A program made the translations under genes and the position numbers. DNA of 34,911 bases from Candidatus Pacearchaeota archaeon (GTDB lineage Archaea > Nanobdellota > Nanobdellia > Pacearchaeales > GW2011-AR1), in contig JAFCGC010000004.1 of assembly GCA_017608305.1 (NCBI GenBank), forward strand, positions 1-34,911, given 5' to 3'. The notes beneath the pieces are model-generated. The model was not told the origin of the DNA and ran no database searches. It worked only from the letters and a program-made list of their open reading frames with translations. Positions 12,577-34,841 of this stretch are shown one piece after another. Positions within the stretch are counted from its first letter, which is position 1; each line of letters starts with the position of its first letter.

Positions 12577-12663
12577 TATACACTACATTTTTTAACAATA
12601 AAGGCTATACACTACATTTTTTAACAATAAAGGCTATACACTACATTTTTTAACAATAAAGGC
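12577..12663. repeat. Three perfect 29-bp tandem repeats in a divergent promoter region
   Basis: Units are 12577-12605, 12606-12634 and 12635-12663, with a 7-base start of a fourth at 12664. Each unit begins TATACACTACA and ends AATAAAGGC. There are no spacers and no clear dyad. The array lies between the minus-strand glyS TATA box and the plus-strand surface-protein TATA box. Confidence 0.95.
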
Positions 12664-12664
12664 T

Positions 12665-12717
12665 ATACACACATAGTAAGTAAGCTTTATAAGGAATAAT
12701 ACACACATAGTAAGTAA
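12665..12717. repeat. Two 19-bp direct repeats flanking the promoter of the 12717 gene
   Basis: ATACACACATAGTAAGTAA occurs at 12665-12683 and again at 12699-12717, where its last base is the A of the start codon. The TATA box lies between the copies. A related AATAAGTAATT precedes the start codon of the paralogue at 27921. Confidence 0.9.
12685..12692 (+). promoter_or_regulatory. TATA box of HTH-tailed surface protein 1
   Basis: CTTTATAA lies 25-32 bases before the ATG at 12717, between the two 19-bp repeats. The spacing implies a leaderless mRNA. Confidence 0.5.
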
Positions 12718-15700
12718 TGGGAAGGGGTCATGTAGCAAAAGCTACAATAGTAGAACTGCAAAATAAAATAGCTCTTGCTAAAAAACAAAAAAAACAATTA
12801 ATTCTATATATTCATAAACTCAAGAAAAAATACTCTCAACAACAAATTTCTTATTCAAAATACATAGAAATTTTGTATAAAAGAGTAAATGGAAAAAATA
12901 TCAAACAATGGATTGATTATTATGATGATTACATAAAAGAATGTGAAAAATTAATCCAAAAACAAAAATCCCAATTAATAAAAAATAAAACTCAAAATTG
13001 GGTGTTAATATTTGGTTTATTATTTATTCTACTAACAGCTGCTTATTATATTGACTCTAGATACACAGGATTTGCCATAGGAGATAATCTAACTGAAACT
13101 CTAATCAATGAAACTAATTTTACAATTCCGGAACAAAATATTACAGAAACATCAGAAATCAATATTACTGAAAATATCACTGAATCTGAAGAGCTTGAAA
13201 TTTCTGAAGATATTCAAACCGAAGAAAAAGAGGTTCCTGAAGACCTTGAAGAAGTGATCCCTTCTCAAGAACTTCCAGGTGATCAACCTGATCAAGAACA
13301 GGAACCTCTTGAAGAAAAAGATCTCACAATTGAAACAATTCAATATACAGCCATTCTAGGCCAGCCAGTTAAATGGAAAAAACACATTGAATTAAACAAA
13401 CCAGAAAAAATCAAAATTGAATTGCCTCAACAAGCTGAAAACATAACAATAAACAAAAAAATAAAAGAACTACAAAAAAAAGAAATTCCAGATCAAGAAA
13501 TAATTGAAATAACTCTAGATGAAAATGAGACACAACTTGAAATTGAATATGAAACTCCTGCACCTTATGCAATAGAAGAAGACACAGCTACAGGGAAAAA
13601 AGTAAAAATTATTGGGCCAACATCAATTCATTATGAAAATGTTTTAATTTATACAGAATTAAATGAAAATCTTAATATAAAAAATCCTTCTAAAGTAAAA
13701 ATATTTTGGGAAGAACAAAATCAATATATTCCAATTCAAAATATTGAAGATCTAAATTCAAATGGGATTTATGATTATATTGAATTTATTGCACCTCATC
13801 TAAGTAATCAAACTTTTAGAATTATTTTAATAACAAAAGCAGAATATTTAGATTCAAATCGAACATTTCTAAACAATATCTATGATGAGGTTAAAGAACT
13901 AGACAATATTTGGAGTGAGGAAATCCCTTCTTCTCATTATGTGAGGGCAACCTTTGAAGAAAATTTAACTTCTGAAAATGATATAACTGTTTATCCAAGA
14001 ATTATTTCAGGGAATCCCATAATTGAAGTTTATGAATTTAATGACACAGAACTTATTGCAGAATTTGAAAACCTAAACAACAACCAATACAATAAAGTTT
14101 TTTTAACAAATTTAATTTCAGAATCCCAAGATGTTTTTGACTTAAGAGTTGTTGGAGGAAGTATTGAATTTGATCATATTATTGATCCCTTAACAGAATT
14201 ATTCTATGATGGTGGAGAAATAGCAGATGGGTGGGTGGCTGGAGATACTACTTGTCCAAGTAACCCTTGGGATACATGTTCTCAAGGCTCTGATAGTGGG
14301 GGGACACTTTATGGAGCAACAACACTACATTATGATGGGGCTCAAAGCATTCGATTTGAAGAAAGCGCGAATGCATATTTAACTAAAACAATTGATACAA
14401 GAGGATATGAAGAAGTTAATTTATCATTTTGTTGGGCACAAGATAATCTTGATGCTAGTGAAACAGGAACAATTTCAGTAGATGGGGTTGTCCTTGATAC
14501 TATTTCACGTGCAGATCCAAGCACTGATAATGCATGGGAATGTATGGAATGGGCTTTAATTGCAAATGAAGACCTTGTTCCTAGTGCTACTACTATATTT
14601 AGATTTGATATGGGAAATAATGGTGCATTTGAAGGCAACGAAGAAGTTTTTATAGATTTATTCAATGTAACAGGACATAATGCTCCAGATTTAATAAAAC
14701 CAGACCTAACAATAACTTTTCCAAACAACAACACAAACTGGAGTGATAATTTACTTGATGTAAATTTCACTGCAAATGATGAGACAGAATTATTCAATTG
14801 TTGGTACTCAAATGATACTTATTCAGTTAATACAACAATTGATTGTGGGGGAAATATAACAACTCTTACTTGGACAGAAGGTCAACATAATGTAACTGTT
14901 TGGGCCAACGATACTGCAGGAAATATAAATCAAACTTCAATTAAATTCACAATTGACTTGACAAATCCTTCACTAACAATACTTTCTCCTTTAAATAACA
15001 CCCACCATACAAATTCTAATCATGACATAAACTATACTGTTGGAGATATAAATCTAGAAACATGCTGGTGGTCAAATGACTCTTACACAAAAAACAACAC
15101 CATAACTTGTGGAGAAAATATCACAACAGTTGTGTGGATAGATGGTCAACATAATTTTACAATATGGACAAATGATTCTGCAGGAAATCAAAACCAAACC
15201 TCAATTAATTTTACAATAACAGGAGACTCCTCCCCAGAAATTGTTGCAGTATATAATGCAACAATGACAGATGTTTCTTCTGGATTAAACTCAGGACCAT
15301 TTAAAACAAGTGTTTTAATTAATTTTTCAGTCACAGATATAGATGGTGTTGAAGATATTAATATCAGTACAGCATTAATAAACTTTACAAAAACAGATGA
15401 AGATATTAGGCAAAACACAAGCTGTGCTGTTATAGATTGGACTGGAACCAATGCTAATTTTACATGTAATATTACAATGTGGTGGTGGGATTCATCAGGA
15501 ACATGGGCAATAGGTGCATATATTGAAGATAATAGCAGTAATGCGCATTCAAACATTTCAGCAGATTTTCAAGTAGGACAAACAATTGGATTTGAATTAA
15601 GTCCTGGAAATTTAACTTGGTCAACTCTTAGCCCTGGATCTTATAATCAAACTGCAAGTAATAATCCTTTATTATTAAACAACACAGGAAATAAAGACAT

Positions 15701-16436
15701 TAATCTAAATGAAATAGGAATAAATGCAACAGATCTTTTAGGAGAAGAAGACAGTAATTATGGGTTGTGGGCAGCAAATTTCTCTGTTAATTGGAGTACA
15801 GGAGGAAGCCCTCCAGCAGAATGTGGAGGTACAAATCTAACTCATGGAAGATATGCAAATATAACAGGAGCAAATTTAACTGCGGGAAACTACACACAAA
15901 ATGATCAAATAACAGGTCAAGAAGAATTATATTTCTGTATAAAATACATAGGAAGTGAACTTACAAGTCAACCTTATTCTACAAAAACTTATGGGAGTTG
16001 GACAATAAGAATTTTATTAGTTGCAATTATTCCAAAAAAGAGAAAAAAGGAAAGAAAGGAAAAAATTATTGGAGAGTTGAGCATCCCCCTAACAATTTTT
16101 TCAAACAAATTAGGAGCATTAGAAACAATCACAAAATATCTAAAAGAAAATTTAAAATTAAACTATAATGAAATTGCAGAAATATTAAATAGAAATCAAA
16201 AAACAATTTGGACTTCTTACAAAAAAGCACTAGAAAAACAAAAATCAATTATAAAAATTGAAAAAACAACAATTTTTATTCCAACAAAAATACTTAAAAA
16301 TAGAAACCTAACTATTTTAGAATCAATAATAGTATATCTAAAAGAAAAAGGATTAAAATATTCTGAAATTTCTAAATTACTAAATAGGGACCAAAGAAAT
16401 ATCTGGACAATCTACTCGAGAACGATCAAAAAATAA
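12717..16436 (+). CDS. Giant surface protein with tandem C-terminal helix-turn-helix domains (copy 1)
   Basis: This 1239-residue protein has a basic, helical, cytoplasm-like domain at residues 1-93 (WIDYYDDYIKECEKL), then a membrane helix at about 94-113 and TGFAIG at 117-122. A Glu-rich linker runs to about 200. Next comes a region shared with the 2306-residue paralogue (GQPVKWKKHIEL through IIDP, about 203-490), a jelly-roll-like domain (about 496-658), two Ig-like repeats ending in TNDSAGNQNQTS-type strands, and a domain (about 838-1100) nearly duplicated in the next gene. A 12-16-residue hydrophobic stretch (WTIRILLVAIIP), then KKRKK, precedes two HTH-like repeats, YNEIAEILNRNQKTIW and YSEISKLLNRDQRNIW. 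Sequons are dense, indicating export and glycosylation. It may be a membrane-anchored sensor that contacts DNA; the second membrane crossing is short and unproven. Confidence 0.85.
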   Translation: MGRGHVAKATIVELQNKIALAKKQKKQLILYIHKLKKKYSQQQISYSKYIEILYKRVNGKNIKQWIDYYDDYIKECEKLIQKQKSQLIKNKTQNWVLIFGLLFILLTAAYYIDSRYTGFAIGDNLTETLINETNFTIPEQNITETSEINITENITESEELEISEDIQTEEKEVPEDLEEVIPSQELPGDQPDQEQEPLEEKDLTIETIQYTAILGQPVKWKKHIELNKPEKIKIELPQQAENITINKKIKELQKKEIPDQEIIEITLDENETQLEIEYETPAPYAIEEDTATGKKVKIIGPTSIHYENVLIYTELNENLNIKNPSKVKIFWEEQNQYIPIQNIEDLNSNGIYDYIEFIAPHLSNQTFRIILITKAEYLDSNRTFLNNIYDEVKELDNIWSEEIPSSHYVRATFEENLTSENDITVYPRIISGNPIIEVYEFNDTELIAEFENLNNNQYNKVFLTNLISESQDVFDLRVVGGSIEFDHIIDPLTELFYDGGEIADGWVAGDTTCPSNPWDTCSQGSDSGGTLYGATTLHYDGAQSIRFEESANAYLTKTIDTRGYEEVNLSFCWAQDNLDASETGTISVDGVVLDTISRADPSTDNAWECMEWALIANEDLVPSATTIFRFDMGNNGAFEGNEEVFIDLFNVTGHNAPDLIKPDLTITFPNNNTNWSDNLLDVNFTANDETELFNCWYSNDTYSVNTTIDCGGNITTLTWTEGQHNVTVWANDTAGNINQTSIKFTIDLTNPSLTILSPLNNTHHTNSNHDINYTVGDINLETCWWSNDSYTKNNTITCGENITTVVWIDGQHNFTIWTNDSAGNQNQTSINFTITGDSSPEIVAVYNATMTDVSSGLNSGPFKTSVLINFSVTDIDGVEDINISTALINFTKTDEDIRQNTSCAVIDWTGTNANFTCNITMWWWDSSGTWAIGAYIEDNSSNAHSNISADFQVGQTIGFELSPGNLTWSTLSPGSYNQTASNNPLLLNNTGNKDINLNEIGINATDLLGEEDSNYGLWAANFSVNWSTGGSPPAECGGTNLTHGRYANITGANLTAGNYTQNDQITGQEELYFCIKYIGSELTSQPYSTKTYGSWTIRILLVAIIPKKRKKERKEKIIGELSIPLTIFSNKLGALETITKYLKENLKLNYNEIAEILNRNQKTIWTSYKKALEKQKSIIKIEKTTIFIPTKILKNRNLTILESIIVYLKEKGLKYSEISKLLNRDQRNIWTIYSRTIKK

Positions 16437-16477: not shown

Positions 16478-17410
16478 ATGGGGAAAAAAGAGGGAATAAT
16501 TTTCACATTTATTTTATTAGTTTTAATAGTAGTAATTCTAGCAACAGGTTCTTTTAATGAAATTAAAAAAACAATAACAGGACAAGCAGTTGATCAACTA
16601 GACATAAATATCACTATAGGAACCCCGACAATAATAGCTGTCTATAATGCAACAATGACAGATGTTTCAGGGGGATTAAGTTCAGGACCATTAAAAACAA
16701 GTGTTTTAATTAATTTTTCAGTTAACAGCCCTACAGGAGTCGCAAATATTAATTCAAGCACAGCAAGCATAAATTTTACTCAATCAGGTGAAGACACCAG
16801 AGAAAACACAAGTTGTAAAGTGACAGAGTGGGCTGGAACCAATGCTAATTTTACATGTAATGTTACAATGTGGTATTGGGACGCAACAGGAACTTGGACA
16901 ATAGGTGCATATATTGAAGACAACAGCAGTAATGCAAATTCAAACATTTCAGCAGATTTCCAAATAGGGGAAACAACAGGATTTGAATTAAGTCCAGGAA
17001 ATTTAACTTGGTCTTCATTAAGCCCTGGAGCTTATAACCAAACCGCAAGTAATAATCCTTTATTATTAAACAACACAGGAAATAAAGCAATAGGGGCAGG
17101 GGCAGGAAACATAACAGTAAATGCAACAAACCTAAGAGGTGAAACAACAGCAACTCAAGCATTATGGGCAGAAAATTTTTCTGTTGCATGGAATACAGAA
17201 GGAAGCCCTCCAGCAGAATGTATAACTAATTTATCTGCAGGTAATTTTGCAAATGTGACAACTGCCAACCTAACAAAAGGAAATTATTCAACAAATGACG
17301 GAGATACAGGTCAAGAAGAATTATATTTCTGTATAAGATATGTAGGAAGTGAATTATCATCCCAAGCATACTCTACAGCAAATGAATCAACCTGGACAAT
17401 ACAAATATAA
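16478..17410 (+). CDS. Membrane-anchored surface protein, paralogue of the C-terminal ectodomain of the preceding gene
   Basis: This 310-residue protein has an N-terminal membrane segment (IIFTFILLVLIVVILATG, about 6-24) followed by ITGQAV. From about residue 50 to the end it matches residues about 840-1100 of the 1239-residue protein, often base for base (for example GTNANFTCN, YIEDNSSNA, NNPLLLNNTGNK). It ends at TWTIQI, exactly where the larger protein continues into its hydrophobic segment and HTH tail. It is therefore an ectodomain-only version. It is rich in N-glycosylation sequons and has two or more conserved cysteines. The next gene starts one base after its stop, indicating an operon. 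Confidence 0.85.
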   Translation: MGKKEGIIFTFILLVLIVVILATGSFNEIKKTITGQAVDQLDINITIGTPTIIAVYNATMTDVSGGLSSGPLKTSVLINFSVNSPTGVANINSSTASINFTQSGEDTRENTSCKVTEWAGTNANFTCNVTMWYWDATGTWTIGAYIEDNSSNANSNISADFQIGETTGFELSPGNLTWSSLSPGAYNQTASNNPLLLNNTGNKAIGAGAGNITVNATNLRGETTATQALWAENFSVAWNTEGSPPAECITNLSAGNFANVTTANLTKGNYSTNDGDTGQEELYFCIRYVGSELSSQAYSTANESTWTIQI

Positions 17411-17411
17411 A

Positions 17412-17975
17412 ATGAAAAATACTAAAACTTACATGAGAAAAATAACTTTATTAATTCTAACTCTATTTTTAATTAGCAGTGTCTCTGCATTTGCAGTTTC
17501 TTCTAAATATTATCAAGGATATCCCATGACAATAATGCCTGGAGAGACCAAAACTACAAAAATAATTTTACAAAATTTAGCAAGTGAAGAAGATGTTACA
17601 GTAAAAGCAGAAATTGTGACAGGAGCAGAAATTGTGAGTTTAATTGGAGATAGTGACACTTTTTTGATCCCAAAAAAAGATAAAACAGAAGTAGAATTAC
17701 AAATAACTGCCCCAACATCTGCAAAAATAAAAGATCTCTACACTGTGGATATAAGATTTACAACAGTAAGAGAATCAGAATCAGGAGAATTTGGATTTGG
17801 AAGCAGCATTGGACATAATTTTGAAGTATTTGTAGGGGATGGATCTTTACTAGAGGAAAAAGAAACAAAAATCTCTCCTCTTGCATATGTTCTTCTTGCA
17901 CTAATAGCCATACTAATCATAATAATCTTTTTATTCCTGAAAAAAAGAAAAAAACCCAAATCTAAAAATCTTTAA
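17412..17975 (+). CDS. Type I membrane protein with one beta-sandwich ectodomain
   Basis: Starting at ATG 17412, directly after the previous stop, the protein has 187 residues. An alternative ATG at 17433 gives a cleaner signal peptide (MRKITLLILTLFLISSVSAFA). An earlier in-frame ATG at 17349 lies inside the previous gene and is unlikely. The ectodomain (about 30-145) resembles Ig-like/COG1361-style beta-sandwiches with YPMTIMPGETKTTKIILQNL. A C-terminal membrane helix (ISPLAYVLLALIAILIIIIF) is followed by a basic tail, KKRKKPKSK. This layout, signal peptide, beta domain, helix and basic tail, is typical of small archaeal surface proteins that accompany larger ones. The partner is unknown. 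Confidence 0.8.
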   Translation: MKNTKTYMRKITLLILTLFLISSVSAFAVSSKYYQGYPMTIMPGETKTTKIILQNLASEEDVTVKAEIVTGAEIVSLIGDSDTFLIPKKDKTEVELQITAPTSAKIKDLYTVDIRFTTVRESESGEFGFGSSIGHNFEVFVGDGSLLEEKETKISPLAYVLLALIAILIIIIFLFLKKRKKPKSKNL

Positions 17976-17979
17976 AAAC
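17966..17979 (+). promoter_or_regulatory. TATA box of 414-residue surface protein
   Basis: AAATCTTTAAAAAC lies about 21-34 bases before the ATG at 18000 and overlaps the end of the preceding gene. It shares the ATCTTTAAA core with the promoters at 16442 and 24062. Confidence 0.5.
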
Positions 17980-17999
17980 TATTTCTCACTATGTAAACT

Positions 18000-19244
18000 A
18001 TGGGTAAAAGAGGTTTAATTGTTTTTTCAACACTTACAATATTTTTATTAAACACAATTATTGGTGCAACAATAACAGGAGAAGTAATTACAGGACAAGC
18101 AGTTAATCAAGTAGGCATGAATATAACCATAACAAATGGGCCTCCTGCACTCACAATTATCTCACCTACAAATTCAACATATACAACAAACACATCTTTC
18201 TTGTTAAACTACTCAACAACAGGAATCAATGTATGGTATAATATAAATAATTCAGCAAACACCACAATAACAGGGCCTTTATTTCTAAATATATCAGAAG
18301 GGAGCCATACTCTTTTTTTATTTGCTAATAATTCATATGGTGAAACTTCAGAGCAAATAAATTTTACAATTGATCTCAGTGAAGAAGTGCAAGAATCTCC
18401 TTCAACAGGTGGAGGGGGGGGAAGTGGTATTACAGCAGAAGCAATAAAAAAATTTGAAATAAATACAGATCAAATCAATGTGAAATTAAAGCAAGGAGAA
18501 ATAAAAACTCAAACCATAAAAATAAAAAATAAAGAAAATCAAAAATTAAATTTTAAAATAACCAAATCACAAGAAATAACAGAACAAATCTTAATAGAAG
18601 ATCATTCTTTTGAATTAGGTCCAGGACAAGAAAAAACAATTGAAATAATATTTCTTGCAAAAGAAAGCATAATTCCAGACCTATACTTAGGAAAAATACT
18701 CATACAATCTGGAAACTCAATAAAAGAAATTTTAATAGGTTTAGAAATTATATCTAAACAAGAACTATTTGATGTAGAAATTGATTTATCTGAAAAATAC
18801 AAAATAATTACTTGTGGTGAAGAACTTATATTTAAAACAAGAATATATAATCTTGGTGAAACAAAAAGAGTGGATGCTTATATAGAATATTTCATAAAAG
18901 ATAAAGATGGAAAAATAATACTGTATGAAGAAGAAACAAATGCAATTGAAACTCATTTAGACACAGTTAAAGAATTTAATTTTCCCAAAGATATTCTTCC
19001 TGGAGATTATGTAATCTATGTAAAAGTAAAATATGGTGAAGAAATTGCAAGTGCAACACAATGGTTTTCAATTGAAGAAGAATGTTTCTATAAAAAATAT
19101 TCAAAAGAAATAACATATGGATCGATTGGATTTTCAATAATTCTTCTTATAATAACAATAATTCTTCTTTTTATTGTACTAAAAAACAAAAAGAGATCTA
19201 CAAGAAAAAGAAAAACATTACATCAAAAAATATTTTCTCGGTAA
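18000..19244 (+). CDS. Membrane-anchored surface protein with Ig-like domains and C-terminal helix
   Basis: This 414-residue protein begins with a hydrophobic segment (LIVFSTLTIFLLNTIIGA), then ITGEVITGQAV. An Ig-like domain (about 45-128) starts ALTIISPTNSTY and is rich in sequons. A glycine-rich hinge (GGGGGSG) at about 137-143 is followed by a longer beta region (about 150-365) with CARDB-like strands and the cysteine pair ITCGEELIF and EEECFYKK. The C-terminal membrane helix (IGFSIILLIITIILLFIVL) ends in a strongly basic tail. The plan matches the 1036-residue protein encoded convergently next door, including the glycine hinge before the last beta region. It is probably an adhesin or envelope structural protein, but the ligand is unknown. 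Confidence 0.8.
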   Translation: MGKRGLIVFSTLTIFLLNTIIGATITGEVITGQAVNQVGMNITITNGPPALTIISPTNSTYTTNTSFLLNYSTTGINVWYNINNSANTTITGPLFLNISEGSHTLFLFANNSYGETSEQINFTIDLSEEVQESPSTGGGGGSGITAEAIKKFEINTDQINVKLKQGEIKTQTIKIKNKENQKLNFKITKSQEITEQILIEDHSFELGPGQEKTIEIIFLAKESIIPDLYLGKILIQSGNSIKEILIGLEIISKQELFDVEIDLSEKYKIITCGEELIFKTRIYNLGETKRVDAYIEYFIKDKDGKIILYEEETNAIETHLDTVKEFNFPKDILPGDYVIYVKVKYGEEIASATQWFSIEEECFYKKYSKEITYGSIGFSIILLIITIILLFIVLKNKKRSTRKRKTLHQKIFSR

Positions 19245-26056: not shown

Positions 26057-26935
26057 ATGACAATACCTTGGTATGCTTTATCCTTAGTATCGGCAGTATT
26101 CTCAGCAAGTGCTGCAATAACTCAAAAAAAAGTCTTATTTAAAGAAACAGCTTTAAGTTTTTCAGTTATCGTCGCTATTTTTAATCTGATTCTTGCGATT
26201 CCTTTTTTTCTTTTGACAGATTTTTCAATCCTAACAAGTTCAGGGCTTATTGTTTTATTTTTAAAATCTATTCTTGCAGGGCTTGCATTTTTATGTGTGA
26301 TGGTTGGGATTAAAAATCTAGAAATAAGCAAAGCACTTCCTCTCCTTGTCTTAACCCCAGGACTAGTTGCTATTTTTGCATTTATATTTTTAAAAGAAGC
26401 ATTAACAATTTTAGAAATAACAGGAGTTGGATTATTAATAGTTGGAACATATATTTTAGCTTTAAAACCAAAACAAAAAATAAAACAACCAATTAAAGAA
26501 GCAGTAAAGGCAAAAGGCCATTATTATATAATTGCTGCCTTATTGTTATTCGCAATTTCATCTATCCTTGATAAAGCTATTTTAAAAAACTTTCAAGTTC
26601 CCCTAAACGCATTTATGGGATTTCAGCATTTATTTTTTGCAATAATCTTTATTTTAATTGCAATTTTTGCATCAAAAACAAAATCAGTAAAATCTGCATT
26701 TAAAAATTCCTGGAAATACATTCTAATCATCGCTATTTTCACAATAATTTATCGTTATACTCATCTCAGAGCAATTAGCATGGCTCCTGTTGCACTAGCA
26801 CTATCAATAAAAAGAATCTCGGTTTTCCTCGCAGTTGTTGCAGGAGGAACTCTGTTCAAAGAACAAAACTTACCAAGAAAAATAATTGCAACAATTATTT
26901 TGATTGTAGGAGCAATTTTAATTATTAATAATTAA
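26057..26935 (+). CDS. EamA-family (DMT superfamily) membrane transporter
   Basis: This 292-residue protein has about ten hydrophobic helices in two repeats of five, separated by a basic loop (KPKQKIKQPIKEAVKAKGH, about 137-155). Each repeat ends with the EamA signature of a Leu/Ile/Gly-rich helix (ITGVGLLIVGTYILAL and IATIILIVGAILII). These proteins export metabolites such as amino acids or nucleotide-related compounds; the substrate cannot be predicted. The start at 26057 fits the shared TATA element. Its stop overlaps the convergent hydrogenase-like gene by four bases. Confidence 0.85.
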   Translation: MTIPWYALSLVSAVFSASAAITQKKVLFKETALSFSVIVAIFNLILAIPFFLLTDFSILTSSGLIVLFLKSILAGLAFLCVMVGIKNLEISKALPLLVLTPGLVAIFAFIFLKEALTILEITGVGLLIVGTYILALKPKQKIKQPIKEAVKAKGHYYIIAALLLFAISSILDKAILKNFQVPLNAFMGFQHLFFAIIFILIAIFASKTKSVKSAFKNSWKYILIIAIFTIIYRYTHLRAISMAPVALALSIKRISVFLAVVAGGTLFKEQNLPRKIIATIILIVGAILIINN

Positions 26936-27789
26936 ACTTTTCTCAAAAAATTAATTCCTTTTGCCTTATCAATAACTCCTTTTTTAGCATCAGGGATATC
27001 TTCGTCTTTTGATTTTTCTAAATAATCTAAGACTTTTTTTCTACGAGCAGGAATACTCAATTTACAGCTTATACAAGGCCCCCCAATACATCCCCCCTTA
27101 CAAAATAAAATATCTAAAAATCTTTTTTTCTGATCTGGATTTTGTAAAAATTTCAAAATATTATTTAATCCATCCATAACTAAAATTTCATCTTGCTTAA
27201 TAACCCCCTTTAAGTGAGCTGTCTTTCCTAACCCGCCTGAAACAGGATAAATTTTTGTATAATCATTATAAAACTTATCAAAATGAGATTTAGTCTTAAA
27301 TTTAGGAACTTTAAATTTCACAAATAATTTATTTAATTGTTTATAATCAATTGTATAATCAATATATTTTGAATTAGCAACTTCTAATTTTTTATAATGA
27401 CAAGGAGAAATAAAAACCAATTTGTGATTAGGATAAATTTTTCTGCATATTTTTCCTGTTGCAGTAACAGGACTATCTATTTGAGCAAGGTTTTTTGCAT
27501 ATTTTGGTGCTTTTTGCTTTATTATTTCAACAATTCCCGGACAAGGGCTCGCAATCAATAATTTTTTAGATTTTTTAAGTTGTTTTTGATATTCTCGGTT
27601 AACCATTTTTGCTCCAAAAGTCAACTCAACTACTTTATCAAATCCCAGAGCCTTTAATCTGGAAATAATTGAAGGATATTCAAAATCAACAACAAAACTA
27701 GGAGCAAGCATTGCAACATATTTACCCTTTAAAGGAAAGTTCAAATTCTGCACACCCACTTTTTTTTCAATTCCATCAAACACATTCAT
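26932..27789 (-). CDS. Stand-alone compact [FeFe]-hydrogenase-like H-cluster protein
   Basis: This 285-residue protein is the iron-hydrogenase large-subunit C-terminal fold without any N-terminal ferredoxin clusters. The H-cluster motifs are present: ASPCPGIVE (C83) for motif 1, SPCHYKKLE (C130, K133, E136) for motif 2, and FCKGGCIGGPC (C230, C234) for motif 3. All four cluster cysteines are therefore conserved. Motif 1 has Pro in place of the first Cys of the classical TSCCP, which is the proton-transfer Cys of catalytic enzymes. This and SGGLGKTA recall the sensory/PAS-linked groups. Two further cysteines (C239, C242) might bind another metal. No maturation genes (hydE, hydF, hydG) are in the window. 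It may be a minimal DPANN hydrogenase or an H2/redox sensor; activity is unproven. Confidence 0.8.
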   Translation of the reverse strand: MNVFDGIEKKVGVQNLNFPLKGKYVAMLAPSFVVDFEYPSIISRLKALGFDKVVELTFGAKMVNREYQKQLKKSKKLLIASPCPGIVEIIKQKAPKYAKNLAQIDSPVTATGKICRKIYPNHKLVFISPCHYKKLEVANSKYIDYTIDYKQLNKLFVKFKVPKFKTKSHFDKFYNDYTKIYPVSGGLGKTAHLKGVIKQDEILVMDGLNNILKFLQNPDQKKRFLDILFCKGGCIGGPCISCKLSIPARRKKVLDYLEKSKDEDIPDAKKGVIDKAKGINFLRKV

Positions 27790-27882
27790 GATTTAACCAA
27801 AACCCTGTTTTTTATAAATTTTACTAAAAAACCCCATATAAATTTATACATCTATAATAAGTATTTTATGCATAAGTACAAA

Positions 27883-27894: not shown

Positions 27895-27920
27895 ATATTA
27901 TACATATATAATAAGTAATT

Positions 27921-30900
27921 ATGGGAAGGACTCGAATAGCAAAAGCAAGAATCGTAGAACTGCAAAGTAGAGTAGCATTTGCTCAGAGGAAAAAAACAGA
28001 ACTAATTCTTTATACCCATAAATTAAAAGAAAAATATCTCAAAAAACAAATTTCTTATTCAAGATATGTAGAAATTCTTTATAAAAAAGCAGATGGAAAA
28101 ACAATAAATCAGTGGATTGATTATTATGATGATTACATAAAGGATTGTGAAAAATTAATCAAAGAACAAAAAAAGAAATTAATTATCACCAAAGTTCCAA
28201 TAATTCTTTTATCTCTTGGTTTTATTATTGTTTTAATCACTTCTGTGTTTTATATACAGCCAATCATAGTTGGTTTTTTTGTTCAAGAACAAGAACATAC
28301 CCAAATAATAAATATGGATTTTAATGAATCAACAATCTATGATTGGGCTGTTGAAAATCCAGGTACTCTGGACTCAGTAAAAATTTCTGGTTCTGTTTTA
28401 AAACAAGGTAATGCTAAAGTTTATCTCGAGGATATTTTAATATTTGATAGTTCTAAATTAAAAAAAGAAAAAAATAAACCAAATTCTCTTTTAACAGGCC
28501 AAGCAATTTCAGAACCAGACAATAATGAAATTTCTTGGTGGAAAAAAATTCTAGGTTTTTTTACATTAGCAGGAAGAGCTGTTGAAGATTCAGGAGACTC
28601 TGGAAGTTCAGACAGTTCAGATAACTCAGACTCAAGTGATTCAGGAAGCGATAGTGGTGGAGATTCAGGATCGAGTGACTCTGGAAGTTCAGATAGCTCA
28701 AGCGAAAGTTCAGATTCAGAAGATACAATTACAGGGGGTTCTACTGCAGAAGATTCGAGTCCTTCCCCAGAAGAATCCTCTACTACTTCTGAAGAAGAAT
28801 CAACCGAAGAAGCACAAAGTGAAGAACCTGAAGAGGAAGAAACAGAGGAGGAACCAGAAACAAATATTACAGAAGAAGAACCCCCAACTAAAGAGCCTGA
28901 ACAAAATATTACAGAAGAACCAGATACAAATGAAACAACTCAAGAACCAAGTGAAGAAGAGCCAGAGGAAGAACCCACAGAAGATTTTATTATAAATTTC
29001 AAAGATATTTGTGAAGAAACATGTGATCTAAGTTATATCCTTCTAAATAAATCAACTTATACTCTAAGAATAGAAATTTCAAACTCAGAATTAAATTTAG
29101 ATGAAATAAAATACACCATATTAGAAAAAATTCCTGAAAACATAACAGAAGAAATTCCTCCTGAAAATATTACCGAAAAACCTATTCTTCCAAACATAAC
29201 AATTATTCCAAAAATAAATATTTCAGAAAACTTCACAATTGCAACAGTTCAATACTCAGCAGTTCTAGGTCAACCTGTTAAATGGAAAAAACACCTTGAA
29301 TTAGACAAACCAGAAAAAATCAAAATTGAATTGCCCAAAGAAGCTACAAAAATAACAGTAAACAAATTAGTAACATTATATTCAGAAGATACAATTACAG
29401 GGGGTTCTACTGCAGAAGATTCGAGTCCTTCCCAAGAAGAATCCCCTACTACTTCTGAAGAAATAAAAGAAATAGAAAAACAAATTTCTGAAAAAGAACA
29501 AGATGAAAAAATTCAAGAACTAGAAGAACAAATAAAAGAATTAAATGAAAAAGTGGAAAAACTTGAAGAAAAAGAGGACATAACCTCAACTTCTTTGATA
29601 ACTGGCCAAACTATTTCAGAACCAGAAAAAGAAAAGAGTTTCTTTTTGACAAAATGGATTAAAAATATTTTCTCTACGATAACAGGAAGAGCAATAACAA
29701 CACAAGAAATTTTGGAAAAAGGCATAATTGAAGTAACAATAGATGAAAATGCAACTAATTTTGAGATCAAATATGAAACACCTGCACCGTATGCAATTGA
29801 ACAAGAAACTTCTAGTGGAAAAATAGTAAAGATTATTGGACCAACATCAATTCATTATGAAAATGTTTTAGCATTTACAGAATTGAATGAAAATCTCAAG
29901 GTAACCAACCCCTCTAAAATAAAAATTTATTGGGAAGAACAAAACACTTATCTTCCAGTTCAAAGCGTTCAAGATAGAAATAACAATAATATTTATGATT
30001 ATATTGAATGGGTTGCACCTCAATTAAGTAATCAAACATTTCATATAATTGTAATAACAAAAGCAGAGCATTTAAATGAAAACAAAATCTTCATAGAAGA
30101 AATTTATGAACAAGTAAAAGAATTAGATAATATCTGGAGTCCAACTATTCCAGATTCACATTATGTTAGAGTAGTTTTTGAAACAAATTTAAGTTCTGAA
30201 AATGATATAACAATTTACCCAAGAATTATTAATGGAACTCCAAAAATAGAGATTTATGAATTAGATGGGACAGATATTATTGCAGAATTTTCTTCTTTAA
30301 ATTCAGATCAATATAATAAAATTTATCTTACAAACCTAATTTCAGAATCACAAAATACATTTGATTTAAAAATCCTCGACGGAGCAGTTGAATTTGACCA
30401 TATTATTGATCCTTCTGCTTGTTCAGGGGGGTGGTGTGAATTTGATAATACACTTAATTTAGCTGATATTTACATATGTGAAAATGGAAGATCAGGATCA
30501 TGTGCAACAACTACAGATATGGGCATACAAATAAAATGGGATATTAGTGATCTTTGCGATTTAAATCCAGATAGTATTGACTCTGCAAACTTACAATTAA
30601 ACATTACATCTAAAGCAGGTTCTCCAGATAATGATGCAACTATTTTTTATATTGAAGACCAAACATGGACAGAAGCATCAGGAGAACTTGTTGTTGCAGG
30701 ACAATCAGCAATAAACCAAACAGCTGGAACTTTCTCAAGCATAACCTCTGGAAAATTAACAAATGTTTCAGTATTAACTCAATTAAAACAAGCATGTGGC
30801 CAGGGAGATAATGTAACCATAAGAATTTATGATCCAGATTATGAGGTTACAGCTATTAATGCTGTAGGGGATGGGGCATTTAATAATTTTGGACATACTG

Positions 30901-33900
30901 AACTTGGGTCTGATAATTATTATGCTTTTGGAGCAAGGGAAAATACAGACTCAACAGCATACCCTAAACTTCTTATTGAATATACTGGGGGGGCTGCTCA
31001 AAATAATGTCCCAACACAAACAACACCAATTATCATTCCATCTGCAGTAAGGGTAGTCGATAATATGACTTGTGTAAATCAAAGCACAGCAGATTTAGAT
31101 GGAGAAACAGTTACAAATATATATAATTGGTTAGTAGACGGAAGTTCAATTGCAATTTTAAACATGCCTTTTAATTCAGAAATTACAGCTACAACTGAAA
31201 ATTTAATTAGAGATTATAGTAATTGGAAAAATAATGCAACACTTGCGTCAGGGTCTGCCACCCCAACATGGACCTCAAACGGAAAATTAGGGGGAGGGTA
31301 TATTTTTGATGGAAAGGACGATTATATGGATATCTCTACAATAAATAATCTCGCAAACACAGAAAGTATTACAATTATGGCATGGATAAAACCAAATGGA
31401 TTCAGCAAATATGATTGGATTTTCACAGCAGGAAGAACAGGAGATAATCCAATTGTGACCATGACTATAAATGAAACAGGATTATTGCAAGGACATATTG
31501 AAGCAGACTCAACAGACCAAATAACAACTACAGAAGATGGATTAACAATGAGTTCTGGAAATTGGTATCATGTGGCAATTGTTTATGATAGAATAAATAA
31601 TCAATCAATTAGATATATTAATGGAACTCAAACAGGAACAATTGATGATATCTCTAGCACAATGGGAACACTTAGTGTGGAAGGAACCTCATATATTGCA
31701 GCTGCAAGCAACTTACAAGCAAATGAACATTTTAATGGGACCATTGATGAGGTAAAAGTTTACAATAGAACTATTTCTGCAATTCAAATAAAAAAAATCT
31801 ATAACGAAGGTTTTAATAATTACACAAATTCCACAATTTTATCAAATGAATTAACTGCAGGTGAAAATTGGACTTGCCAAGTAATTCCTAATGATGGAAA
31901 AGATGATGGACTTATTTCTCAAAATTCAACAATAATTTTAAGTTCTTCAGGATGTATTCCAATTGAAAGTGGAATAACTCTTTCAGCAGATACATCACAC
32001 TGTTATGAATTCACTCAAGATGACACCACCCTAGATTGTGCAGGTCATACAATAACAGGAACAAAAAACAATACTCTTTATTATATAAATGCAAACAACA
32101 CAAAGGGAATTACAATAAAAGATTGTCTTTTACAAAATGCATCTCATGGAATCAAATTCAAAGATGTAAATAATTCAAAAATTATAAACACAACCTTATA
32201 TAATTTTAATGACACAAGCGGATTAGAAGTATATGGGATTGGGATTAATTTTACAAATTCCTATAATAATTTAATTCAAGTAAATTTAACAAATATTTAT
32301 ACAGGCCAAACAACAAGTGAAGATTGTTTTGATAATAGTCATTTATATGGAATTTATCTTTTTAATTCAAATAACATAACAATTGAAAATTCTACTTTTA
32401 ATAATATAAATGGAACTTATAGAGGAGACACAAGTGATTCTGCGGGATGTCAATCAGGAATACTTTCTCATGGAACTGCAATTTATGCAGAAAATTCAAA
32501 TAATTTAACAATTTATAATTCAAATTTAAGTTCAGGAAAATTTGGAATAACTATTTCAAATGGAATTGACCTCAATATTTCTTCAAATAAAATTAATAAC
32601 ATTACAAGCAGGTTTGCACATATTTCCTCAAATTCAAAAAATATTTTTATAATAAATAACCAAATTAACCAATCCTCTAGAGCAATAATAATTTTAAATT
32701 CAAATAATTCTTTAATTAAAAATAATTTTATTAGTCAAGCAAATACCAGAAATATTTATTTTTCTTCTTCACAAGATTATATTATACAAGACAATAAAGT
32801 AAAACATGGTCTTGCAGATTTAGACGCATCAAGCCTCATACAAACAACAGGAGGAAACAATGGAACAATAAAAAACAATGTTTTTGAACATTTTAATTTA
32901 TCTTCAAATACTGCTTTTTATATTGCAAATGGATTAAATTTAGGAGATACAAACACTATTTTAAAAAACAATACTTTTTTCAATATAACTTTTCCATATG
33001 ATAATGGGGGGGTAGTTTATGTGAATAATCAAATTAATTCCTCAAATAATAATTTTACAAATATTACAAAAGCTTATTATTTTAATGGATTAGCTTCAAG
33101 CAACTCAACAATAATTAATGACACAATAACTTTTTCAAATAATAGTATTTATCTAGAAGCAAGTGCAAATAACATTTCATTTGTTAATGTAAACTTTAAT
33201 AAAAGTAATTGTGAATTTGAAGCATTAACTTCTTTTTTTAATTATTATTATTTAAAAGTAAATGTGACAAACAACACCCTACAAAGTATCAGCGGTGCAA
33301 GTGTAAATATAAGTGATGCATTGGGAGTCAGAAGTGTAAGCGATACAACTGATGCTGATGGACTAACTTCTCAATACACCTTTTTAGAATATAATGAAAC
33401 TAGTAACGGCAAAACATATTTTACAAACTACAATGTTAGTGGAAACGAATCTAATTATGCAACAAATTCTACACTAGTCAATCTCACGAGTTCAAAATTT
33501 GTTCATTTAATTTTACCCTCTAACACCGCACCAGAAGTAATCTATATGTCTCCAATAGCAGCCACAAATCCTGTTGAAGCAGGATACAAAATAATTAAAT
33601 TTAATGTAACAATCAATGATACTGATGGAGTAAATAATTTAAATGATTCAAGTGTTACGGCTAATTTCTCAAAAACAGATGAAGCCCTAAGAGAAAACAT
33701 TAGTTGTGTAGAAACACTAGGAGCAAATACTTCTTCTGCTCAAAATTATTCATGTACAATAGCTATGTGGTATTTTGATGGTAGTGGAAATTGGAATGTA
33801 ACTGTTTATGGAGAAGACACGAGTGGAGGATCAGGAATAAACACCTCAACAAGTTTCCAATATAATCAACTAAAAGCTTTAATTATTTCCCCCTCTGGAA

Positions 33901-34841
33901 TTGGATTTAATGTTGAAAGAGGGCAAACAAATCAAACAGCAAACACAGGAATTAGTATAAATAATACTGGAAATTATAATGCAACCGGAAATATTGGAAT
34001 AGAAGCAATTGATCTTTATGGAAAAGGAAATGCAGATGGATATGTAATTTCATGTGGAAATTTTACTGCAGATACAGATAGCGGAGAAACATCTTGTGCA
34101 GGAGTTGTATTGCAAAATGCAACAAATGTAACAATAACATCAAGTGTATTAGAAAGAGGAAATTTATCAGACGCAAAAGCACAAGAAACAATTTATTATT
34201 GTATGAAAACAGTTCCCTCCATAATTGTTTCAGGAGTTTATGATACTTCAACAGCAGGAAGTTGGACCATCACCTTATTACTAGTAGCATTGATCCCTGC
34301 AAGAAGAAAGAAAAATATAAAGAACAATAAATCAATCAAAGCACTAGATCTATTAACACAAGAACTAAGAGAAGAATATTCAAAAGACAAAGAAGCAATA
34401 ATAAAAGCACTAATTAAAGAAATCAAAAAGAAACACAGAATCAGCAATAAAGAAATTTATGAATTATTAGAGGTAAGAAAGGATATAGAAATACCTCTAA
34501 ATATTTTCACAAAGGAGTTAGGAGCACTAGAATCAATTACAAAATATATGAAAGAGAATTTAAGTATGGCTTATTATGAAATTGCTGAATTACTCAACAG
34601 AGATCAAAGAACAATCTGGACAGCTTATAACAAAGCAAATAAAAAACAAAACAAAGGATATAAAACAAAAAACAAAAAAATGAAATTACCAATACAAATA
34701 TTTGATAATAAAAAACTAACAATACTAGAAACAGTCATTGCATATTTAAGACAAGAAAATCTTTCATATAGTGAAATTGCTAAATTAATTAACAGAGATC
34801 AAAGAAATATTTGGAAAACTTATTCAAAAATAAAAAAATAA
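27921..34841 (+). CDS. Giant surface protein with tandem C-terminal helix-turn-helix domains (copy 2)
   Basis: This 2306-residue protein repeats the plan of the 12717 gene. A conserved N-terminal domain (1-90; WIDYYDDYIKDCEKL) is followed by a membrane helix (about 92-115), LLTGQAISEP, a Ser/Asp-rich tract (about 221-266) and a Glu-rich tract (to about 357). The shared GQPVKWKKHLEL-to-IIDP region (about 445-830) is broken by an insertion of about 110 residues. Then come a DNRLRE-like domain (about 834-1024; KLLIEYTGG), a LamG-like domain (about 1080-1290; YIFDGKDDYMDIS), a right-handed beta-helix of NosD type (about 1345-1775), a carboxypeptidase-regulatory-like fold (about 1777-1865) and an Ig-like C-terminal ectodomain. 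WTITLLLVALIPARRKK precedes the tail, which has YYEIAELLNRDQRTIW and YSEIAKLINRDQRNIW HTH units. It is probably a glycosylated, membrane-tethered sensor or adhesin. Confidence 0.85.
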   Translation: MGRTRIAKARIVELQSRVAFAQRKKTELILYTHKLKEKYLKKQISYSRYVEILYKKADGKTINQWIDYYDDYIKDCEKLIKEQKKKLIITKVPIILLSLGFIIVLITSVFYIQPIIVGFFVQEQEHTQIINMDFNESTIYDWAVENPGTLDSVKISGSVLKQGNAKVYLEDILIFDSSKLKKEKNKPNSLLTGQAISEPDNNEISWWKKILGFFTLAGRAVEDSGDSGSSDSSDNSDSSDSGSDSGGDSGSSDSGSSDSSSESSDSEDTITGGSTAEDSSPSPEESSTTSEEESTEEAQSEEPEEEETEEEPETNITEEEPPTKEPEQNITEEPDTNETTQEPSEEEPEEEPTEDFIINFKDICEETCDLSYILLNKSTYTLRIEISNSELNLDEIKYTILEKIPENITEEIPPENITEKPILPNITIIPKINISENFTIATVQYSAVLGQPVKWKKHLELDKPEKIKIELPKEATKITVNKLVTLYSEDTITGGSTAEDSSPSQEESPTTSEEIKEIEKQISEKEQDEKIQELEEQIKELNEKVEKLEEKEDITSTSLITGQTISEPEKEKSFFLTKWIKNIFSTITGRAITTQEILEKGIIEVTIDENATNFEIKYETPAPYAIEQETSSGKIVKIIGPTSIHYENVLAFTELNENLKVTNPSKIKIYWEEQNTYLPVQSVQDRNNNNIYDYIEWVAPQLSNQTFHIIVITKAEHLNENKIFIEEIYEQVKELDNIWSPTIPDSHYVRVVFETNLSSENDITIYPRIINGTPKIEIYELDGTDIIAEFSSLNSDQYNKIYLTNLISESQNTFDLKILDGAVEFDHIIDPSACSGGWCEFDNTLNLADIYICENGRSGSCATTTDMGIQIKWDISDLCDLNPDSIDSANLQLNITSKAGSPDNDATIFYIEDQTWTEASGELVVAGQSAINQTAGTFSSITSGKLTNVSVLTQLKQACGQGDNVTIRIYDPDYEVTAINAVGDGAFNNFGHTELGSDNYYAFGARENTDSTAYPKLLIEYTGGAAQNNVPTQTTPIIIPSAVRVVDNMTCVNQSTADLDGETVTNIYNWLVDGSSIAILNMPFNSEITATTENLIRDYSNWKNNATLASGSATPTWTSNGKLGGGYIFDGKDDYMDISTINNLANTESITIMAWIKPNGFSKYDWIFTAGRTGDNPIVTMTINETGLLQGHIEADSTDQITTTEDGLTMSSGNWYHVAIVYDRINNQSIRYINGTQTGTIDDISSTMGTLSVEGTSYIAAASNLQANEHFNGTIDEVKVYNRTISAIQIKKIYNEGFNNYTNSTILSNELTAGENWTCQVIPNDGKDDGLISQNSTIILSSSGCIPIESGITLSADTSHCYEFTQDDTTLDCAGHTITGTKNNTLYYINANNTKGITIKDCLLQNASHGIKFKDVNNSKIINTTLYNFNDTSGLEVYGIGINFTNSYNNLIQVNLTNIYTGQTTSEDCFDNSHLYGIYLFNSNNITIENSTFNNINGTYRGDTSDSAGCQSGILSHGTAIYAENSNNLTIYNSNLSSGKFGITISNGIDLNISSNKINNITSRFAHISSNSKNIFIINNQINQSSRAIIILNSNNSLIKNNFISQANTRNIYFSSSQDYIIQDNKVKHGLADLDASSLIQTTGGNNGTIKNNVFEHFNLSSNTAFYIANGLNLGDTNTILKNNTFFNITFPYDNGGVVYVNNQINSSNNNFTNITKAYYFNGLASSNSTIINDTITFSNNSIYLEASANNISFVNVNFNKSNCEFEALTSFFNYYYLKVNVTNNTLQSISGASVNISDALGVRSVSDTTDADGLTSQYTFLEYNETSNGKTYFTNYNVSGNESNYATNSTLVNLTSSKFVHLILPSNTAPEVIYMSPIAATNPVEAGYKIIKFNVTINDTDGVNNLNDSSVTANFSKTDEALRENISCVETLGANTSSAQNYSCTIAMWYFDGSGNWNVTVYGEDTSGGSGINTSTSFQYNQLKALIISPSGIGFNVERGQTNQTANTGISINNTGNYNATGNIGIEAIDLYGKGNADGYVISCGNFTADTDSGETSCAGVVLQNATNVTITSSVLERGNLSDAKAQETIYYCMKTVPSIIVSGVYDTSTAGSWTITLLLVALIPARRKKNIKNNKSIKALDLLTQELREEYSKDKEAIIKALIKEIKKKHRISNKEIYELLEVRKDIEIPLNIFTKELGALESITKYMKENLSMAYYEIAELLNRDQRTIWTAYNKANKKQNKGYKTKNKKMKLPIQIFDNKKLTILETVIAYLRQENLSYSEIAKLINRDQRNIWKTYSKIKK
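28715..28796. repeat. 82-bp intragenic repeat, copy 1
   Basis: This matches 29381-29462 with two mismatches, 666 bases (222 codons) apart and in frame. It encodes SEDTITGGSTAEDSSPS and flanking Glu/Thr residues. Confidence 0.9.
29381..29462. repeat. 82-bp intragenic repeat, copy 2
   Basis: This second copy sits at the start of the roughly 110-residue insertion that the 12717 paralogue lacks. The insertion also carries a second LITGQTISEP, so a linker segment seems to have been copied into the conserved domain. Confidence 0.9.

Follow-up and report, generated by a model that had tools for sequence, protein, structure and literature searches.

A DPANN surface protein with a C-terminal tandem helix-turn-helix tail, a candidate regulator of its own operon

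The window analyzed in this study is the whole stretch of 34,911 nucleotides at positions 1 to 34,911 (forward strand) of contig JAFCGC010000004.1 from a Candidatus Pacearchaeota archaeon (GenBank assembly GCA_017608305.1). It contains two genes for large surface proteins that share an N-terminal domain (N-domain) and a C-terminal tandem helix-turn-helix (HTH) tail. The features of the two loci, with their evidence in brackets, are as follows:

12665–12683, + strand: putative distal operator copy, ATACACACATAGTAAGTAA (repeat search; motif match with ≤1 mismatch)
12686–12691, + strand: TATA box (TTTATA), first base 31 bp upstream of the ATG (sequence; the −31 spacing is also found in several relatives)
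12699–12717, + strand: putative proximal operator copy, abutting the start codon (repeat search; motif match)
12717–16436, + strand: surface protein with C-terminal tandem HTH, 1239 aa (open reading frame and translation)
12717–12995, + strand: predicted N-terminal cytosolic basic helical domain (..QWIDYYDDYI..), residues 1–93 (N-domain HMM)
12996–13055, + strand: predicted N-terminal membrane helix, residues 94–113 (KD 1.99)
13056–15998, + strand: sequon-rich ectodomain with Ig-like domains (Big_13) (Pfam and sequon count)
15999–16034, + strand: hydrophobic linker WTIRILLVAIIP, residues 1095–1106, then KKRKKERKEK (comparison of fused proteins)
16083–16274, + strand: predicted HTH unit 1 and connection, residues 1123–1186 (AlphaFold; weak PF04545 match)
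16275–16433, + strand: predicted HTH unit 2, residues 1187–1239 (PF08281; AlphaFold)
16478–17410, + strand: next gene, a 310-aa tailless N-anchored paralog ending in WTIQI-stop (same +1 position and ending in relatives)
17349–19244, + strand: two further cassette genes of 208 and 414 aa (similar two-TM genes and order in many relatives)
27846–27864, + strand: putative distal operator of the second tailed gene, ATACATCTATAATAAGTAT (motif match)
27900–27918, + strand: putative proximal operator of the second tailed gene, ATACATATATAATAAGTAA (motif match)
27921–34841, + strand: second tailed surface protein, 2306 aa, with N-domain and tandem HTH as in the first (LamG, beta-helix)

The reading frame at 12717–16436 and the motifs quoted from it in an initial annotation, made from the sequence alone, were found to be exact, and the N-terminal membrane helix that it had described is predicted at residues 94–113. 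The N-domain carries a net charge of +15 across residues 1–94. The ectodomain (residues 114–1094, 981 aa) is sequon-rich, as had been claimed, with 51 sequons compared to 18.5 in shuffles and a shuffle maximum of 35 (n = 1000), and is probably located outside the cell and glycosylated; the tail contains only one sequon. A TG[FQ]A-like motif (e.g., RYTGFAIG, ITGQAV) is found just after the N-terminal membrane helix in many DPANN surface proteins, including those with the tail fused, those of the split form described below and those without a tail, and may be a processing or anchoring signal.

Downstream of most fused genes is a tailless paralog that stops exactly at the W-x-I point of the fusion junction, without hydrophobic or basic residues. 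The cassette after the fused gene is conserved in L018–L035 at positions equivalent to 16478–19244 of the window, and its members are the ~310-aa tailless paralog, a ~180-aa protein with N- and C-terminal TM segments (SSPYW..PG) and a larger two-TM protein. The second tailed gene is adjoined by a gene on the minus strand (26932–27789) for an iron-only hydrogenase large subunit C-terminal domain (Pfam, 3e-37).

When scanned alone, the tail matched PF08281 (Sigma70_r4_2) in two stretches with an E-value of 2.9e-8 and 33.7 bits, above the gathering score of 25.7, while the full 1239-aa chain reached 25.6 bits, just under that score. The same profile was matched by 51 of the 54 members of the tail family (E ≤ 0.01). 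The AlphaFold model of the tail, built with 54 relatives, consists of two repeats of a strand followed by three helices (pLDDT 97–98), so that the HTH fold proposed in the initial annotation is predicted in both repeats; the tandem comprises 117 residues in the window protein. The individual units superpose on sigma region 4 structures at 0.6–0.9 Å. A Foldseek search with the complete tandem returned nothing at E ≤ 0.001 and good matches for single units only, and a sequence search of the PDB with the tail profile returned no match. The likeness to Sigma-70 region 4 thus resides in the fold of each unit and in the sequence profile, whereas the tail differs in being a tandem, in having an extra strand and a short helix ahead of each unit and in occurring outside a sigma factor context. 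Archaea do not have sigma factors, and the identification of the tail protein as a Sigma-70 factor was rejected because no sigma region 2 was detected in the Pfam or NCBIfam scans. The model shows the tail to be a true tandem HTH; a DNA-binding role is very likely, given this fold and, independently, the conserved operator-like motif before the same genes. It should be noted that soluble proteins with four HTH units are found in L012 (346 aa) and L087 (336 aa), and that surface proteins of L007/L034, L020, and G431 have doubled (four-unit) tails.

The same tail ends the 2306-aa protein encoded at 27921–34841 (55% identity) and a third protein encoded elsewhere in the genome, on a different contig, the end of which truncates its gene on the 5′ side. 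It is also found at the end of about 30 proteins in other DPANN archaea. The search of named genomes identified 78 module loci, all with DPANN archaeal labels except for two MAGs labeled bacterial, which are probably misnamed or misbinned, and the module is present in 158 of 371 genomes searched from the phylum. In the fused form, proteins as long as 3456 aa carry the module at their C-terminus (tailed surface proteins range from roughly 1,000 to 3,450 aa), while in the split form, which characterizes most other lineages, the module is a separate soluble protein, mostly of 150–210 aa, without a signal peptide. The fusion is no artifact, because it is conserved across many genomes: chance or artifact as its source was rejected on account of its recurrence in about 30 genes and many assemblies, and misassembly or read-through of two genes was rejected on account of the reverse order of the split pair, in which the regulator gene comes before the surface gene.

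Among 38 standalone HTH genes of the split loci, 32 overlap the following gene, which is encoded on the same strand, compared to 120 of 508 control ORFs. This following gene encodes a protein with a TM segment in the N-terminal region and the TG motif in 24 cases, and the HMM of the N-domain from the fused proteins matched 15 genes downstream of standalone HTH genes, with a best E-value of 7e-29. Given that fused and split loci share this N-domain, several split and fused systems are therefore one system. The split proteins of L043 and L076 stop at the W-x-[IV] strand and are tailless. Fused tails cluster in a tree that requires 3 changes compared to the 25.6 expected under shuffled labels, although this tree was built from few columns and has numerous open forks. 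A separate fusion occurred in G127: its surface gene carries a C-terminal HTH of its own, yet the beginning of that gene is still overlapped by a standalone HTH gene. As the computed gene overlap, the shared N-domain and G127 demonstrate, the fusion arose from an ancestral regulator/surface gene pair.

In L053 (9477–9899) and L065 (9935–10384), the standalone HTH gene is downstream of the gene for a TM protein, with a 4-nt overlap, an order opposite to that of most split loci; the partner in L053 is a 3159-aa surface protein. An open frame of 8071 aa that extends up to the contig start in G433:C84 (L188) has an HTH tail at its end, and two motif copies in opposite orientation are located just after it. 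A putative N-terminal fusion in G106 (L125) was dropped, as its open frame enters masked N bases and is uninformative.

A conserved 17-bp motif, TACAYNNATARTAAGTA, is found at both fused and split genes, usually as two copies around the TATA box. Upstream of 12717, the two 19-bp copies of ATACACACATAGTAAGTAA are identical and flank the TATA box on either side, with the proximal copy at −17 to −1 of the ATG; the same placement is found in several relatives, and the site abuts the ATG in many of the inspected motif loci. The second tailed gene at 27921 is laid out likewise, with ATACATCTATAATAAGTAT and ATACATATATAATAAGTAA as its two copies. With ≤1 mismatch, TACAYNNATARTAAGTA occurs at four sites in the 720-kb genome, a pair upstream of each of the two tailed genes whose start is known, and none of 100 window shuffles reached the observed motif count. 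Among 138 family genomes, 43 exact motif sites were found compared to 2 for the reversed pattern; the motif is present in 26 of these genomes, the module in 28 and both in 18 (Fisher p = 6e-10). Except for L157 and L159, all of the inspected motif loci directly precede an N-domain gene or a clear N-anchored relative. In four of the motif-only genomes (G437, G445, G291, and G009), the gene runs off the contig or is broken before a tail could be read, and in three further motif-only genomes it runs off within a short locus. When a matrix made from fused promoters was applied to standalone HTH promoters, 21 of 38 scored higher than 99% of the 228 control promoters (p = 1e-17) and 17 of 38 were below the motif threshold; the top-scoring control promoter actually belongs to the broken N-terminus of a fused gene (L024). 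By these computations, the motif is near-exclusively linked to genes of this system. No standalone copy of the module was found in the genome of the window (G000, 84% complete), where the tails are the sole family members found and are therefore the only members there to bind the sites.

Two tailed relatives from another branch, L062 and L086, have AACACATATTAAGT repeats instead, in which the right half TAAGT is kept and the left half differs. The first HTH diverges between this branch and the others, and the second HTH is well conserved, which hints, in a manner that is suggestive only, that each HTH unit may read one half-site. Immediately upstream of the operator in the window (12577–12670), a 29-bp unit, TATACACTACATTTTTTAACAATAAAGGC, is repeated three times in perfect tandem, and TATACACTACA is also found upstream of a related gene in L021.

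The hydrophobic stretch ahead of the tail, which the initial annotation had suggested might cross the membrane, proved to be a constant feature of the fused form: the junction of Y-S-T-x-x-x-G-[SA]-W-x-I, a hydrophobic stretch and a K/R cluster is conserved, and the hydrophobic stretch followed by the basic cluster is kept in all 28 fused proteins measured, with a median of 7 K/R among the following 10 residues. In the window protein, however, WTIRILLVAIIP does not qualify as a standard transmembrane helix: it is 12 residues long, with an Arg and a Pro among them, its best 19-residue KD value is 0.81, and it is marginal as a membrane span when judged on the KD and Hessa scales. AlphaFold places TIRI as the final ectodomain strand and the remainder in disorder, with no membrane helix. 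The stretch from the W to the basic cluster varies from 10 to 32 residues, with a median of 12; six fused proteins (L031, L086, L062, L054, L045, and L026) have segments of 17–32 residues, and those of L062 and L086, with stretches of at least 19 residues, resemble a real span. The linker of the independent G127 fusion, “WSISIFFFRRRK,” is shorter than the 12 residues of the window protein. Leu segments of 10–12 residues insert as TM segments, and 10 residues are enough when flanked by Lys (PMC8657811).

The tails of the fused proteins have 29 sequons compared to 30.6 expected, while their ectodomains have 1694 compared to 756 expected, and the amino-acid composition of the tails resembles that of the soluble standalone proteins. 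Because sequons are at chance in the tails and enriched in the ectodomains, and because all fused proteins measured have the basic cluster, the tail behaves as a cytosolic domain would. Together with the standalone-like composition and the long stretches in L062 and L086, this suggests that the tail faces the cytosol. A single chain carries both the HTH and the predicted TM segment at residues 94–113, the basic make-up of a transmembrane transcription regulator. The linker may serve as a stop-transfer span, belong to a tail that is stalled or coupled to export, or be where a protease releases the tail. The one-piece outside-to-DNA protein that had originally been envisaged is supported in part: its tandem HTH and its fusion stand, and the operator-like motif adds to the case for DNA binding, while a membrane crossing at the linker and the transmission of an outside signal are possibilities.

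The best reading is that the window protein is a surface protein of adhesin or S-layer-like type, with a C-terminal tail that regulates the protein's own operon. We propose, with a probability of roughly two in three, that fusion of the regulator/surface gene pair produced a tail that faces the cytosol and controls its own surface-protein operon, probably by repression. In this proposal, the chain would start in the cytosol and pass through the membrane at residues 94–113, and the short hydrophobic segment would serve, with the basic cluster, as a stop-transfer or short second span that holds the two HTH units on the cytosolic side. There they would bind the 17-bp sites on either side of their own gene's TATA box; the bound tail would cover the region from the TATA box to the start codon, and transcription would most likely be lowered once the surface protein is sufficient. 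We infer DNA binding by the tail of the window protein from its fold and the conserved motif, and the sites in its own promoter are its probable targets because the motif is common to fused and standalone genes and is linked to almost nothing else.

Repression rather than activation is favored because the proximal site (−17 to −1, with the TATA box at −31) would overlap the position of RNA polymerase and the start of a probably leaderless transcript. Archaeal repressors act at this position (PMC5512572). Against repression, the distal site just upstream of the core promoter is also compatible with activation, and EarA, an activator, binds TACATA upstream of the BRE (PMC10665913). The promoter of its own gene is the best-supported target, so that the protein is better described as a surface protein that regulates itself than as a general receptor linking the outside to DNA. 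That the structural surface protein is its own repressor and reports export or surface density through an HTH that is kept in, or withdrawn from, the cytosol is a tentative and somewhat doubtful extension.

Other readings give the linker or the sites a different role. The tail might monitor export or processing, with the HTH acting only while it is cytosolic before export or once a protease frees it at the linker, so that transcription would report secretion. This would suit a linker that is too short for a comfortable span yet invariably hydrophobic and followed by basic residues, and a freed tail would function, since the standalone relatives are soluble; however, no conserved protease or sorting motif was seen, and the six fused proteins with longer segments, with L062 and L086 looking like a real span, make this reading unlikely, if worth keeping in view. 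The distal sites upstream of the core promoter and the identity of the EarA site TACATA with the left half of the motif speak for a tail that binds its promoter from the membrane and either activates it or draws the gene to the membrane so that synthesis and export are coupled. Such transertion is proposed for VtrA/VtrB (PMC9977878). Given that a proximal site between the TATA box and the ATG is hard to square with simple activation and that the TATA boxes appear strong, we consider this improbable.

We regard it as very improbable that internal initiation within the reading frame yields the tail as a separate, ordinary soluble regulator: the ancestor was a separate protein and the window gene has one in-frame TTG just ahead of the HTH, but the linker has no in-frame ATG in 21 of 28 fused genes and no ATG, GTG, or TTG in 7 of 28. 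An extracellular tail with another use, such as capturing DNA outside the cell, is scarcely credible, since the motif is tied to promoters, tail sequons are at chance and the soluble standalone homologs have no signal peptide, even though the linker may fail to span the membrane and HTH folds bind DNA.

Transmembrane transcription regulators of the ToxR, CadC, and TcpP type generally have an N-terminal HTH followed by a single span and a small sensor. They resemble the system of the window in combining an HTH with at least one membrane segment in a single chain and in regulating from the membrane (surveyed in PMC10269533), whereas here a C-terminal HTH pair is carried by a huge, structural-looking surface protein, the likely target of which is its own gene. 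Membrane-bound one-component regulators are known from bacteria and archaea (PMC10269533; ArnR, PMC6396743). ArnR and ArnR1 of Sulfolobus are archaeal examples that regulate surface structures, with a pair of inverted-repeat promoter boxes as a further likeness (PMC6396743). In contrast to the window protein, however, they are small, with an N-terminal HTH and two C-terminal TMs, and they activate archaellum genes without being a surface structure themselves; assignment of the window protein to the ArnR type was rejected, as its HTH is C-terminal rather than N-terminal. EarA of Methanococcus and Pyrococcus is also an archaeal regulator of surface structures (PMC5512572, PMC10665913), and its site TACATA is identical to the left half of the motif; it differs in being a separate regulator and an activator with sites upstream of the BRE only. 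The present system thus differs from known membrane regulators in size, the C-terminal tandem HTH, the surface-structural chain, the proposed self-target and the documented split ancestor. No prior description of this DPANN fusion was found in the open-access literature searched, outside of which most subscription papers lie.

DPANN archaea are tiny and mostly uncultured, and many are thought to live attached to other cells. To our knowledge, almost nothing is known about gene regulation in these organisms, and we know of no regulatory layout in which a cell-surface component gauges itself. In the present system, a single protein family can be assigned one operator and one target operon throughout a phylum, and regulation of the surface layer is therefore directly testable in vitro. 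The fused and the ancestral split states both still exist in nature, with G127 as an intermediate that has both. If the proposal is true, a huge structural surface protein would physically be its own regulator.
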